This document shows positions 2,811-28,535 of a DNA stretch of 32,662 bases, one piece after another. The notes under the pieces were generated by a model. The model was not told where the DNA came from. It searched no databases and saw nothing but the letters and a program-made list of their open reading frames with translations. Positions within the stretch are counted from its first letter, which is position 1; every line of letters begins with the position of its first letter. Location of the stretch: the IMG/VR virus record IMGVR_UViG_3300021963_000419, positions 1 through 32,662 of that record; one strand, 5' to 3'. A program made the position numbers and the translations under genes. Origin of the DNA: a virus.

Positions 2811-3824
2811 ATGAGATTAAAGTCTATTGTTTTATTCATAGCACTTGTTGTTAGTATTTTTACAACACCTGCTGCTAACGCTGAATCCTTTAAAGGTGCT
2901 GGATCAACATTTTCTGCTAATTTTGTTGATCAATGTCGAGTTATGTATGCTAAACAAACTGGGAATACTTTAACATACACCCCTAATGGATCTGGAGCAG
3001 GTCGCAATTTTTTTAATAATAAGTTAGTAGATTTTGCTATATCAGACACGCCATACTCTGCAGCAGACAGGACACCAACGGAAGATTTTATTTATGTACC
3101 TTTAGTTTCGGGACCAATTGCTGTTGTCTATAATCTTCCACAATATAAAACAAGATTAAAACTATCTAAAGAAGTATTGGCAAAAATATTTGCTGGACAA
3201 ATAACCATGTGGAATGATCCACAAATTCAAAAATTAAACGCTACCAAATTACCAAAACTTAAAATAACCGTAGTGTATAGATCTGATGGATCAGGCACAT
3301 CTGAAGTCTTTACATCTTATCTAAACTCAATTGCTCCTGAAATATGGACTAAACCAGGCAGTAAAACATTTGTTACGTCTTTTCCTGGTAAGATAAATGA
3401 TTATATTGGATATTATCAAGGAGTAAATGGATCTACTCAGATTGCGTTTACTCAGGCTACCCTTCCTGGCTCTATAGCCTACAATGAGGTATCTTATGTA
3501 AGAGGTATGCAGAGTGCGCTTATTGAAAATGAGGCGGGAAGGTTTATGGCTGCTACTAGAAATGCAACATCTTCATTTTTATCTAATCTTAAATTTAATA
3601 AAGACGGCACCGCAATATTAAATTATCTTAACCAATCTAAAACCTCTTATAATATATCAACATTTGCTTATGCAATTGCATATGTTAATACTGGAGAAAA
3701 GGCTGCGGTACTGAAAGACTTTTTAACTTTTGCTGTTACTAAATGTAATAAAATAGAAGGATATGCTTCTATATCTGGCAATGCTTTAAAGATTGCCAAA
3801 ATTCAAATAGCCAAAATTAAGTAG
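2811..3824 (+). CDS. pstS: Phosphate-binding protein PstS
   Basis: The 337-residue protein has a cleavable signal peptide (residues 1-24, ending A-N-A before E25) and PstS phosphate-binding loops: GAGSTF (29-34), NGSGAGR (59-65), SDTPY (78-82) and RSDGSGTS (157-164). It would capture phosphate outside the membrane for the host PstCAB importer, a well-known auxiliary role in cyanophages. The signal peptide has no lipobox cysteine, unusual for a Gram-positive host where PstS is normally a lipoprotein. ATG lies 11 nt after a TAAGAT-like -10, with TTGATT at 2767-2772 as a weakly placed -35, so it may be leaderless. Confidence 0.92.
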   Translation: MRLKSIVLFIALVVSIFTTPAANAESFKGAGSTFSANFVDQCRVMYAKQTGNTLTYTPNGSGAGRNFFNNKLVDFAISDTPYSAADRTPTEDFIYVPLVSGPIAVVYNLPQYKTRLKLSKEVLAKIFAGQITMWNDPQIQKLNATKLPKLKITVVYRSDGSGTSEVFTSYLNSIAPEIWTKPGSKTFVTSFPGKINDYIGYYQGVNGSTQIAFTQATLPGSIAYNEVSYVRGMQSALIENEAGRFMAATRNATSSFLSNLKFNKDGTAILNYLNQSKTSYNISTFAYAIAYVNTGEKAAVLKDFLTFAVTKCNKIEGYASISGNALKIAKIQIAKIK

Positions 3825-6436: not shown

Positions 6437-6571
6437 TTACTTCTTCTTTATAAAAGAAAAAGCAGTTTCTTTTGCACCTTTAACAGCCTGCTTAAAACCA
6501 TAGGCATAAGAACCTATCATTAAAGCAACAATTGCTGAAGAGTGTAGCAAATAAAACAGTGCGCTTCTCAT
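6437..6571 (-). CDS. 44-aa membrane microprotein coupled to katG
   Basis: ATG 6571 overlaps the katG stop (TAATG) and follows AAAGGAG. The product has one hydrophobic helix (about residues 3-24: A-L-F-Y-L-L-H-S-S-A-I-V-A-L-M-I) and a Lys-rich end (F-I-K-K-K). Coupling to katG suggests co-expression; function unknown. Confidence 0.65.
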   Translation of the reverse strand: MRSALFYLLHSSAIVALMIGSYAYGFKQAVKGAKETAFSFIKKK

Positions 6572-8661
6572 TATCTCTCCTTTACATCAAATCGATCAAG
6601 CATCATTACCTTGTGCCAAGCATTAGCAAAGTCATTCATAAACTTTTGTCCTGCATCATCAGAGGCGTATACTTCTGCAATAGCACGAAGTTCTGAGTTA
6701 GATCCAAAAATAAGATCAACACGAGTTGCATTACCTATTAAGGCTCCATCCACATAACCTTCAAAGTTATTGATTGATGTCTGCTTCCATGAAATTTGTC
6801 CAGATAATAAACTCTTTAGATATCCATTATCTAACTTATTAATCATTAAAGTTTTCATGCCACTTAGCAATACAACTAACTCAACTGGAGTTAGATTAAG
6901 CATATTTGCTTTTTCAACTAACAGAACTTCTGCAGGAGTTGTAACTCCATCCTTTAAGTAGTTTCTGAAGCCATCAGCGATTGGCTCAAGAACACTAAAT
7001 GATTCTGCATCAGTTTGCTCTTGAGTAGCATCTGTTCTTCCTGCAATGAAAGGAACGGTAATTGTATTATCAGATGCTTTCTCAATAGCAGCACATCCAG
7101 CAAGAACAATAAGATCTGCTAAAGATGCTCCATATTCCTTCTGTAATGTTTCTAAATAATTAATTACAGGATATATAAATTGCTGGTTGTTAGATTCCCA
7201 ACTTCTTTGTGGCTCCAGTATGATACGAGCACCGTTTGCTCCACCACGTTTATCAGTTTTACGGAAAGTAGAGGCAGCGGACCATGCAGTGTATACAAAG
7301 AAATATGGAGGAATATCAGAAGACTTGACAGCATTCTTGATAGCCTCTACATCAATGTTTACATTAGCATTCTTTGGAACTGGATCTTGCCAAATTAGTT
7401 CTTCTGCAGGAACTTCTTTACCGAGATAACGAGCAATAGGACCCATATCTCTGTGTGTTAGTTTAAACCAAGCACGAGCAAATTGATCTGAAAAATAATC
7501 AAAGTCCTCTAAGAATCTTCTTGAAATCTTTTCATACTCTGGATCAAACTTGAGAGCCAAGTCTGCAGTTGTCATTACTGGGGCATGGAATTTGCCTTCG
7601 ATATGTGCATCTGGTACTAAGTTAGCAGCAGATTCATCAGTAGGAATCCATTGTGTTGCACCAGCAGGAGACTTTACCTGCTTCCAATCATACTTAAATA
7701 AAATCTTTAAGTAAGAGTTATCCCACTTAGTTGGTGTAGGCGTCCATGCACCTTCGATACCACTTGTAATAGTATCTTCTGCATTACCTTTTCCAAATGA
7801 ATTCTTCCAGCCAAGACCCTGCTCTTCAATTGGCGCACCTTCTGGTTCTGGTCCAACATTCTTGGGGTCTCCAGCACCATGTGCCTTACCAAACGCATGT
7901 CCACCAGCAATAAGAGCAACAGTTTCTTCATCGTTCATTGCCATTCTTGCGAATGTCTCACGAATATCTCGTGCAGATAATAATGGATCTGGATTACCAT
8001 TAGGACCTTCAGGATTTACATAAATCAATCCCATCTGTACAGCAGCAAGAGGATTTTCTAACTCACGATCACCGCTATAACGATTATCTGCAAGCCATTC
8101 CTTTTCTGTACCCCAGTAAGTATCATCTGCTTCCCAAACATCGGCACGACCTCCACCAAAGCCAAAAGTTTTAAAGCCCATGTTTTCAAGAGCAACATTA
8201 CCAGCAAGAATCATTAGGTCAGCCCATGAAATCTTCTTGCCATACTTTTGTTTGATTGGCCACAACAAACGACGAGCCTTATCTAAATTACCATTATCTG
8301 GCCATGAGTTTTGTGGGGCAAATCTATGCAGACCTTCTCCAGCACCTCCACGACCATCAGTTGTTCTGTATGTTCCTGCGCTATGCCATGCCATACGAAT
8401 AAATAGTGGGCCGTAATTGCCATAATCAGCAGGCCACCAATCTTGCGAGGTAGTCATAACTTCCTCAATATCAGCCTTAAGAGTGTCAAGATCTAGACTA
8501 TTAAACTCTTTAGCATAATCAAAGTCTTCGCCCATTGGGTCTGACTTAGGTGAATTCTTTCTTAAAGGAGATAAGTCTAATTGGTTTGGCCACCAATCTT
8601 TATTATATGTTCCTTCATTGTTTAAACTGTTACCCGTAAATGGGCACTTTGCTTCTGACAT
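6571..8661 (-). CDS. katG: Catalase-peroxidase KatG
   Basis: The 696-residue two-domain class I haem peroxidase is complete. The N-domain has distal R89, W92 and H93 ([11 protein letters not shown]), proximal H255 (GGHAFGK), and the residues of the covalent Met-Tyr-Trp adduct needed for catalase activity: W92, Y214, M240. The C-domain has the degenerate A-W-S-A-A-S-T-F-R copy. It decomposes H2O2 to water and O2 and has peroxidase activity. It is flanked by phage tRNAs (Glu upstream, Thr downstream) and has its own extended -10 promoter, so it seems an integral phage auxiliary gene. KatG is slightly shorter than usual (about 720-740). Confidence 0.97.
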
Positions 8662-14261: not shown

Positions 14262-14657
14262 TTACTGAAAAATGGGGTATCCAAGATTATGCTTGATCAT
14301 GTCCGAAAGGTAGTCCCCTAGGCCAACGTGAAACTGCTCAAAAAATGTGCGGTATTCGTAATCATATTTTGCCAAATTGGCATATCTCAAAAGATATTCC
14401 TCATCTATCACAAAGAACCATTTATCGAAATGTATTTTTATTTCATTAAAAACTAGGGTAGCCAAATGGCTGTCATATGGGACATTATATTCTACTAGGT
14501 CAGATAACATTTCTGTTATTGCTTTAGCCTCAGCAGCCATATCTACCCAATCTTGTCTTGAATATTGAGAAAGCCTATTTTTACATTCAATAACATTGGG
14601 ATTATCTGGTTCTGCAAAAAGCCAGTTTTGCCATAAATTTCTACATGTTACAGCCAT
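14262..14657 (-). CDS. Helical protein, possibly TipAS-like, 131 aa
   Basis: A helix-rich, aromatic protein with W-V-D-M-A-A-E-A-K-A-I, D-S-H-L-A, Y-L-L-R-Y-A-N-L-A-K-Y-D-Y-E-Y-R-T-F-F-E-Q-F and G-L-G-D-Y-L at the end, a pattern reminiscent of the TipAS ligand-binding fold. That match is tentative. ATG 14657 is 7 nt after its -10 box (leaderless), divergent from the 14700 gene. Confidence 0.5.
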   Translation of the reverse strand: MAVTCRNLWQNWLFAEPDNPNVIECKNRLSQYSRQDWVDMAAEAKAITEMLSDLVEYNVPYDSHLATLVFNEIKIHFDKWFFVIDEEYLLRYANLAKYDYEYRTFFEQFHVGLGDYLSDMIKHNLGYPIFQ

Positions 14658-14699: not shown

Positions 14700-15020
14700 A
14701 TGGATCACACCATTCTATATATAATATATCACCCTCAATACAATGCCATAAAGGTAGGGATAGGAGATATTGCTGGTAAAAGGTTTAAAGCCCATAAGAC
14801 CAAGGGATGGGAATTAGTTGCATATTGGTATTTTCAAAATCGAGCGGGAGCCAGAAGAGTAGAATCTATAGTAGTAAATACACTAAGGGATAAATACGGA
14901 CATTTCCTCAATAAGGATAATATGCCATATGGGGGATATACGGAGACATTTAATGCCAAGAAAATAACCAAGAGAAGGTTGATTGGTTTGGTCAATAGGG
15001 CTATAAAGGGTCTATCGTAA
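14700..15020 (+). CDS. GIY-YIG-like protein, 106 aa
   Basis: ATG 14700 is chosen because it sits 6 nt after TATAAT; a TTG upstream would start inside the promoter. L-Y-I-I-Y-H-P-Q-Y-N-A-I-K-V-G-I (residues 6-21) and R-A-G-A-R-R-V-E (49-56) recall GIY-YIG/T5orf172-type nucleases (the strand pair, a conserved Arg and Glu). It is the only plus gene between 6 and 26 kb and borders the origin-like repeats. Confidence 0.5.
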   Translation: MDHTILYIIYHPQYNAIKVGIGDIAGKRFKAHKTKGWELVAYWYFQNRAGARRVESIVVNTLRDKYGHFLNKDNMPYGGYTETFNAKKITKRRLIGLVNRAIKGLS

Positions 15021-15058
15021 TCTTTTTATACCCGCTTTTATATACCCTGGTTTGAAAG

Positions 15059-15111
15059 TTATCCACAGGGATATGATGGTTTTGAGATTATTTATCCACA
15101 AGTTATCCACA
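15059..15111 (+). other. Cluster of three perfect DnaA boxes
   Basis: TTATCCACA at 15059, 15092 and 15103, all on the plus strand, the last two 11 bp apart (one helical turn), followed by an AT-rich stretch. These are strong host DnaA sites. Confidence 0.75.
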
Positions 15112-15454
15112 GATAAATCTTACTGATTATATTTTTAGATAGGGTTAAAGTGGAGTGAAGTGGAGGATAGTGGAGCATGGAGCGCTTTTTAAGGCGGGGA
15201 TCGTAATGTCAAACCATCAAACCATATATCCATTCAAACCCTTATACCATATATGCCCATATATTGTCAAACCATGTATAAAAGGTTTGGCATTATATCT
15301 GCAAAACCATGGTTTGTCAAGTATCTTCGTAATGTTTTATGCAGAAAAAATTGCCAAAAGTCTGGGAAATTTCTGATAATTTCGTAATATCTTTTTATAT
15401 CCAGGAAAATGTTTTAAAATGTTTGAAAACCAGAAAACAATGGTTTGTTATATA

Positions 15455-15673
15455 CTATTCAGGGGAATTAGAGTGTTGATCGTAATCTTTTTTATATTCC
15501 CCCGCCGTTTTGTAGAAGGCAGGTAGGAACGGAAGAAGAGGCGCTTTGGCAATTGTATATAGCATGCCCGTTAAAACCGTCATGTCTTTCGTAAAGGAGT
15601 CCCAATCAGATTCTTGATCATGTCTGTGTACATTTTTGTTTTGATACATTCTAGCAAAGTGACGGGGACTCAT
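15455..15673 (-). CDS. Hypothetical protein, 72 aa, inside the origin-like region
   Basis: Basic start (S-P-R-H-F-A-R-M-Y-Q-N-K), a hydrophobic middle (A-P-L-L-P-F-L-P-A-F-Y) and a polar tail. ATG 15673 is 6 nt after TGT-TATAAT (15680-15688). Its position among iteron-like repeats makes it a candidate for copy or origin control, which is speculation. Confidence 0.6.
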   Translation of the reverse strand: MSPRHFARMYQNKNVHRHDQESDWDSFTKDMTVLTGMLYTIAKAPLLPFLPAFYKTAGEYKKDYDQHSNSPE

Positions 15674-15679
15674 AATTTA

Positions 15680-15718
15680 ATTATAACACTCCTTTATTCC
15701 CCGCCAAAAAGCGGCGGG
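15680..15718 (-). promoter_or_regulatory. Leaderless -10 and adjacent hairpin
   Basis: TGT-TATAAT (15680-15688) precedes ATG 15673. A CCCGCC/GGCGGG hairpin (15700-15718) covers the -35 position. Confidence 0.5.
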
Positions 15719-15883
15719 ATAAAAAAGATACCTAATACTCCTATAGTAAATACACTATATAGAACATACATTGGTTTGACAAACAAAGTATATTATGGTT
15801 TGTGGAAAATATGGTTTGGATCGTAATCAAATATTCTGGGAAAAATATATAATGATCGTAATGGTTTGAATACCTGAAATAAG

Positions 15884-15902: not shown

Positions 15903-16175
15903 CTATCTGTCAAATCCCATTAAGAGTTCGTCCAAACTAGTATAACCAGTGTCCTCAGCACCAATGGCTTCTAACAATAAATCCCATGCTTCGTTTATAT
16001 ATCCCGTAGCAATTTCAGTAGGGGCAACAATGTCATGAGTAATAGAAAAAGCAAGTGGCAAACCAATGTCATTGTATTCAATAAAGTCTTCAAACTCAGG
16101 GTCATCTTTATAGTTTAGCCAAAGGTCTGACAAAATATTACACTTATCAGAAAAGTCTGTATTGGTGTTGCTCAT
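15903..16175 (-). CDS. Acidic hypothetical protein, 90 aa
   Basis: Strongly acidic, with W-L-N-Y-K-D-D-P-E-F-E-D-F. AGAGGAG precedes ATG 16175, and a TATAAT (16228-16233) inside the upstream gene may add transcription. It overlaps that gene by 29 nt. Unknown. Confidence 0.65.
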   Translation of the reverse strand: MSNTNTDFSDKCNILSDLWLNYKDDPEFEDFIEYNDIGLPLAFSITHDIVAPTEIATGYINEAWDLLLEAIGAEDTGYTSLDELLMGFDR

Positions 16176-24147: not shown

Positions 24148-24168
24148 TGTGGATAAGTCTGTGGATAA
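24148..24168 (-). other. Two DnaA boxes, inverted orientation
   Basis: TGTGGATAA at 24148 and 24160, 12 bp apart, i.e. TTATCCACA on the minus strand, next to CGACACGCC repeats. Confidence 0.65.
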
Positions 24169-27686: not shown

Positions 27687-28535
27687 ATGACACTAAAATC
27701 TATTTACGATATCGCATTAGATTCTGCTGACGGGCAGTCTAACTTTCTTGAACAATTTAGAGGCAAAGCAACTTTAATTGTAAACACAACTGTTGGATGC
27801 GGAAACGCAAATCAAATGGAAGTTTTACAATGGCTACAAGATAAGTACGGTGGAGAGCACTTCCAAGTAGTTGCTATCCCAACCAATGATTACTGTGGTC
27901 CAGGAATTACACATGGCAAATGGTCAGAAGGTATTACTTGCGGAGCAGACTCTGCAAACTATGGCAAAGATGTTTATGGAACAACATTCCAATTTTCACA
28001 AATGGTTTCTTCGATTCCAGGTGAGGGAGTTAGCCAACAACTAGGAGTTGAGCCAGGACACAATGGACTAGGACAACCTTTTGGTGAGCCACACGAACTA
28101 TATTTACAGATTAGAGCACATCAAAATACAGCAAAGACTAAATTAATAAATGCTGGTTTTAATTATGACGAAATGTATAAAGATAAGTACCACTCATACT
28201 GGTTAAATCTCGGTTTCTATAATGGAGAATGGATGGGCGGTAACTTTGAAAAGTATCTAGTAGACAAAGACGGATACGTTGACAAGCATTTCCAATGCAC
28301 AGTTCTAAACTGGGATTCTGAAGCAACTGTTAAAAAAATGGCAGAAGAGTCAGGAAAGAAGATTGGTATTGGTATGGGTCGTTCTAAGAAGATATTTGAA
28401 GAAGAATGGACCGTTGTTTGCCAAAACATTGAAGAATTAATTATGGGAAGACGATCAATAGTTAACCCAGTTAATGACAATCTTCTTGCTCCAAATGACG
28501 CATCTGAAATATCTAATACAATTTCATTTGCATAA
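27687..28535 (+). CDS. Glutathione-peroxidase-like thiol peroxidase
   Basis: The N-terminal 100 residues follow the GPx layout: S-I-Y-D-I-A, D-G-Q-S-N-F-L-E-Q-F-R-G-K (15-27), L-I-V-N-T-T-V-G-C-G (30-39, peroxidatic C38), L-Q-W-L-Q-D-K-Y and I-P-T-N. Later N-F-E-K-Y-L-V-D-K-D-G-Y-V matches the GPx end strand. The catalytic Gln position reads Asp and the Trp position Gly, so the usual tetrad is incomplete; length (282) exceeds typical GPx (about 160-180), with a long insert. It may reduce peroxides with a thioredoxin-like donor, complementing KatG. Confidence 0.65.
   Translation: MTLKSIYDIALDSADGQSNFLEQFRGKATLIVNTTVGCGNANQMEVLQWLQDKYGGEHFQVVAIPTNDYCGPGITHGKWSEGITCGADSANYGKDVYGTTFQFSQMVSSIPGEGVSQQLGVEPGHNGLGQPFGEPHELYLQIRAHQNTAKTKLINAGFNYDEMYKDKYHSYWLNLGFYNGEWMGGNFEKYLVDKDGYVDKHFQCTVLNWDSEATVKKMAEESGKKIGIGMGRSKKIFEEEWTVVCQNIEELIMGRRSIVNPVNDNLLAPNDASEISNTISFA

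Follow-up and report, generated by a model that had tools for sequence, protein, structure and literature searches.

Our analysis indicates that a mostly noncoding stretch of DNA, which dozens of large lake (freshwater) actinophages have retained, is a conserved cis-acting control region of this large phage family. Its core joins tandem DnaA boxes, a tract of DnaA-trio-like triplets and an operator of the host regulator MraZ, and two predicted promoters face this core. The arrangement leads us to propose a transcription-assisted, host-DnaA-dependent phage replication origin with an added MraZ input as the likeliest role of the region, a reading to which we give about even odds.

The locus was studied in the virus record IMGVR_UViG_3300021963_000419, analysed over its whole length of 32.7 kb (the window) and probably a fragment of a larger phage genome. 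The window contains a gene for WhiB, an actinophage marker (PMC10202952), and therefore points to an actinobacterial host and a large-actinophage fragment. Relatives reached through the two genes that flank the locus are 100-123 kb in size. One annotated relative encodes portal, capsid, protease, terminase and ribonucleotide reductase together with its own DnaB-type helicase, DNA polymerase III alpha and RecA, and this gene content, replication genes included, is of the virulent type. The known phages that match it best infect Streptomyces and measure ~120-135 kb, several of them in the Stanwilliamsviridae; the two core proteins compared, the polymerase (PolIII alpha, ~55% identity) and the portal (45-48%), suggest that it is distantly related to these viruses. 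We found no DNA similarity to the locus region in known phages, identified no helicase loader or initiator, and saw no phage-encoded DnaA in the window. The window also carries a full-length, phage-borne catalase-peroxidase gene (KatG-like, two peroxidase domains; 6571-8661, minus strand) that is missing from ten relatives, and the few matches to its product in phage collections resemble bacterial or mislabelled contigs. Genes for a PstS-like phosphate-binding protein (2811-3824), Hsp20 (2280-2699) and a glutathione-peroxidase-like protein (27687-28535) are probable auxiliary host-type genes, and a phage-encoded protein with a TipAS antibiotic-recognition domain adjoins the locus (14262-14657, minus strand).

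Four kinds of short repeat are concentrated in the locus, exactly where a sequence-only reading had placed them. Three perfect host DnaA boxes, TTATCCACA, of a consensus that is conserved in relatives, lie on the plus strand at 15059-15067, 15092-15100 and 15103-15111, the last two in tandem and 2 nt apart. AGTGGAG follows three times on the same strand at an exact 10-bp period (15149, 15159 and 15169). Seven copies of TCGTAAT, all on the plus strand, span 15015-15862 (starting at 15015, 15201, 15327, 15382, 15480, 15821 and 15856), and eight copies of ATGGTTTG/CAAACCAT span 15210-15868 (inverted at 15210, 15218 and 15268; direct at 15309, 15440, 15795, 15811 and 15861). Compared with the rest of the window, the Poisson probabilities of these densities are 6e-4 for TTATCCACA, 5e-10 for TCGTAAT, 2e-5 for AGTGGAG and 7e-18 for ATGGTTTG, which has no copy elsewhere in the window. 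An AGTGGAG-type triple appeared in none of 2000 Markov-1 genomes of the same length, nor did any of these genomes carry a pair of DnaA boxes on one strand within 60 bp of each other.

When close relatives, found through the two flanking genes and the MraZ pattern, were checked for these repeats, the locus proved to be conserved. Across 67-69 modules the core has the consensus TTATCCACAGGTTTATCCACAGATAAATCTTACTGATTATATTATTAGATAG-N-AGTGGAGTGAAGTGGAGGATAGTGGAG, and the AGTGGAG triple follows the last DnaA box after exactly 37 bp, as in the window, in 48 of 58 modules and after 36 bp in nine. TCGTAA is strand-polar in all 49 loci compared, with 2-9 copies on the plus strand and 0-1 on the minus strand, and TGGTTTG is enriched ~21-fold in 42 lineage-A loci. 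Much of the gap between the DnaA boxes and the triple is taken up by a DnaA-trio-like tract (ATC-TTA-CTG-ATT-ATA-TTT-TTA; 15117-15137, plus strand) that begins 5 nt past the DnaA box and consists of seven consecutive NTN triplets, or 3'-NAN-5' on the opposite strand. The same gap holds mostly 5-8 consecutive trio triplets in the modules of relatives. Runs of at least five were present in 53 of 55 modules versus 5.4% of control positions taken from these flanks, a count that reflects conservation among homologous modules and not 53 independent events, and in 0 of 15 other tandem DnaA pairs of these genomes.

The tract invites comparison with the basal origin unwinding system (BUS) of bacterial oriC, defined by two DnaA boxes in tandem, no more than 3 nt apart, with at least three DnaA-trios within 16 nt (PMC8287927). 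The window has such a tandem pair (15092/15103) followed by seven trios, and the likeness extends to the 2-3 nt between boxes and to a trio run that starts within a few nucleotides of them. Unlike the bacterial element, the one described here is phage-borne and fused to a MraZ box, and its trios were not found in a second phage lineage (lineage B) or in the Streptomyces relatives looked at. Judged by this layout, DnaA could bind the tandem boxes and unwind the adjoining DNA. It counts against an origin that these genomes contain further tandem DnaA pairs, so that DnaA may act as a transcription factor here. Five more perfect TTATCCACA boxes lie elsewhere in the window; they include a noncoding tandem pair on the minus strand ~9 kb to the right of the locus (24148/24160, spanning 24148-24168, 12-bp spacing), which is kept in several relatives and lacks a trio tract.

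The AGTGGAG triple (15149-15175, plus strand) is, by its sequence, a MraZ box, an operator of the host's division-cluster regulator. MraZ sites have been described as AAAGTG[T/G] direct repeats (PMC8475190). At least three GTGG-type direct repeats at a 10-bp period are present at 15149-15175 and likewise in relatives. A scan of GTDB genomes for the exact triple pattern returned at least 80 loci, of which 58 were left once simple tandem arrays and contig ends had been dropped; among the matches listed, 43 of these 58 non-trivial loci have the mraZ N-terminal motif 20-140 nt downstream of the triple. Repeats of the same kind lie upstream of mraZ in small-genome actinobacteria (mraZ found by HMM in 27 of 30 genomes), and actinobacterial mraZ repeats overlap the apparent core promoter; an HMM-confirmed mraZ with its box is present in genome G016. 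We therefore rejected the earlier view of AGTGGAG as an iteron, since the same pattern precedes mraZ in bacteria. The box of the bacterial dcw/mraZ promoter (Eraso 2014 and Fisunov 2016, cited in PMC5138195 and PMC8475190) has, in actinobacterial mraZ promoters, the direct repeats and 10-bp period of the phage box. It differs in overlapping a core promoter, whereas the phage box adjoins DnaA boxes and has neither mraZ nor a conserved plus-strand gene behind it.

MraZ is among the most widespread bacterial regulators, and its wider role is unclear. We found no MraZ gene in 11 phage records, so the protein that would read the phage box must be host MraZ, which we predict to bind there from the match between the repeats. 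No report of MraZ sites in phages was found in the open-licence literature. No DnaA boxes were seen within ~200 bp of actinobacterial mraZ boxes, and the phage pairing of DnaA and MraZ sites is thus not simply copied from the host. Three Bacteroidota genome loci (L123, L126 and L168) have DnaA-box-like sequences, TTATCAACA/TTATTAACA, directly 5' of MraZ-box triples, so that certain bacteria may also pair DnaA with MraZ sites. Because one noncoding locus carries consensus sites for both DnaA and MraZ, two cell-cycle proteins of the host, a titration decoy also comes to mind: phage genomes, once replicated, would sequester the two proteins, stop host initiation and deregulate or derepress the dcw division cluster. 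We regard this as improbable: six relatives have only one MraZ box per genome, and a sponge would have no need of the rigid 37-bp spacing between DnaA and MraZ sites.

To the right of the MraZ box lie two sigma70-type promoters, both on the minus strand and both facing the MraZ-DnaA core. P1 (15292-15320) is a perfect consensus, TTGACA-N17-TATAAT, and P2 (15241-15270) reads TTGACA-N18-TATAAG. Perfect P1 matches on the minus strand were counted 61 times over 67 modules, with 0.018 near-consensus promoters expected per shuffled sequence, and P2 recurs in the modules as TTGACA-N17/18-TATAAG, 50 bp to the left of P1. The palindrome AAACCATGGTTT overlaps the -35 box and spacer of P1. Because ATGGTTTG-type copies overlap the -35 boxes of leftward promoters, this 8-bp, partly inverted repeat (ATGGTTTG/CAAACC) resembles an operator more than it does the iteron of a plasmid, and its eight copies in the window are probable operators. 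On the strand of the MraZ box we found no conserved canonical sigma70 promoter, no canonical rightward promoter that coincides with the box, and no widely conserved gene that follows it. The third AGTGGAG repeat could supply a -10 element (GATAGT), a weak candidate without a -35 box.

These findings bear on whether the locus is an iteron-type plasmid origin that would make the element a phage-plasmid, as the sequence-only reading had suggested. DnaA boxes and short repeats are what such an origin would contain. Its repeats, however, would be long and direct, not 8 bp and partly inverted; AGTGGAG belongs to the MraZ box; and the annotated relative has virulent-type gene content. A search of ten relatives (66-123 kb) for two protein families, Rep3 and ParA (AAA_31), found neither an initiator nor a partition protein of these kinds. 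We consider a plasmid origin very improbable, and what stands of the earlier proposal is the candidate origin itself, made plausible by tandem DnaA boxes and a trio tract at fixed geometry and by a DnaA-box cluster in Streptomyces phages.

The region had also been called almost gene-free, which it is not. A leaderless gene of 72 aa (15455-15673, minus strand), with the -10 element TATAAT immediately 5' of its ATG, belongs to a conserved small-gene family (MSPRHF..) with 31 members in 49 homologous loci. Its place is near-constant beside the MraZ box, ~260-430 bp off, and its C-terminus is very variable, with His-Phe alone invariant. The gene had been noted as a conceivable RepA; it is real and conserved, and nothing marks it as RepA. 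We rejected it as an initiator or repressor in view of its length, its single invariant His-Phe and the lack of any family match. On the right, the locus is bordered by a conserved 90-aa gene that reads towards it (15903-16175, minus strand; 132 relatives, no family matched). The left border is a GIY-YIG/T5orf172-like endonuclease gene (14700-15020, plus strand; phrog_681 endonuclease, E=4e-7; weak T5orf172), with 35 members in the 49 loci at variable distance. The right side of the core is thus stable, with the 72-aa gene followed by the 90-aa gene, and the left side carries inserted genes at variable distance; those inspected have leaderless promoters of their own. The locus has no intrinsic terminators and no credible match to known RNA families.

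The main rival of an origin, which we regard as possible and nearly as likely, is an early promoter and operator hub without origin function, where DnaA and MraZ serve purely as transcription factors, the promoters P1, P2 and that of the 72-aa gene are early promoters for host RNA polymerase, and ATGGTTTG repeats are repressor operators. Such a hub would account for leftward promoters that are perfect and conserved and whose -35 box is overlain by repeats. It would also account for the clustering near the locus of near-consensus sigma70 promoters, most of which are on the minus strand, and it has a parallel in CtrA phages, where host-regulator sites control transcription in an intergenic region (PMC9437464). 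It fits less well with the DnaA-MraZ gap, which is a trio and AT tract with no recognisable promoter, and with the course of P1 and P2 transcripts, which would begin with a few hundred bp of noncoding or antisense sequence. The inserted genes inspected, moreover, use their own promoters.

For an origin, we envision a scenario in which host DnaA, once bound to the tandem boxes, would form a polymer along the neighbouring AT-rich trio tract. Predicted leftward transcription from the strong promoters P1 and P2 would run into this tract and assist the process, much as at promoter-activated phage origins. Loading of the phage's DnaB and DNA polymerase III would come next. The ATGGTTTG repeats would serve as operators that tune P1 and P2, and the MraZ box, at its rigid spacing, could let host MraZ gate initiation or report the host's growth state. 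GC skew, proposed earlier as a check, lent an origin no support: gene orientation dominates it, and once third-position skew is corrected for strand no switch is seen at the locus, genes of both strands shifting in the same way. The missing switch weighs little, because many phages show none.

More distant relatives suggest how the region arose. Loci of lineage B (L284, L322, L313 and others) share the triple but differ in the left flank, and in L284 and L333 the DnaA boxes lie to the right of the triple instead. In Streptomyces phage BillNye, a TTATCCACA pair and two inverted boxes lie at 119.4-119.8 kb, in DNA that is mostly noncoding; this stretch can be recognised in 35 records of Streptomyces phages. 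BillNye has no MraZ box or AGTGG-type triple. In these Stanwilliamsviridae, whose polymerase and portal are homologous to those of the freshwater phages, the DnaA-box cluster sits in a noncoding gap of 1.3-1.8 kb, and in six of the 35 that were examined TCGTAA is confined to a single strand (2-3 copies, against 0 on the other). DnaA boxes, TCGTAA restricted to one strand and a large noncoding gap are thus common to the two groups; the Streptomyces cluster differs in its gene context and in lacking the trio tract and, as checked in BillNye, the triple. From this distribution, the DnaA boxes and TCGTAA seem to be old and the MraZ box a later addition in the freshwater group. Similar tandem DnaA boxes occur in intergenic DNA of Demerecviridae (T5-like), and in the T5-like Salmonella phage bastian (L455) noncoding DNA with TTATCCACA boxes resembles the left half of the core.

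The closest precedent in logic would be found in phages of Alphaproteobacteria, where intergenic regions rich in CtrA sites are linked to lytic deferment and DnaA sites are not clustered (PMC9437464). There too, conserved noncoding phage DNA in several lineages is packed with sites for a host cell-cycle regulator; here the regulators are MraZ and DnaA and the phages belong to hosts of another phylum. The RNA-based origins of cluster A mycobacteriophages (PMC7157519) likewise are noncoding, transcribed actinophage regions implicated in replication without RepA. Unlike the present locus, they belong to prophages and lie beside parABS, whereas no ParA was found in ten relatives of the present phage; DnaA is absent from the main text of that account.

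The strictly spaced MraZ-DnaA pair suggests that these phages sense the host's division and initiation jointly, or manipulate both. With considerable doubt, we suggest that a family of lake actinophages might have built the host's MraZ operator into a DnaA-driven origin, so that copying would be timed by the division and growth state of the host. For a large phage family the locus is a candidate origin that can be tested, and it offers studies of DnaA-trio unwinding a compact natural element.
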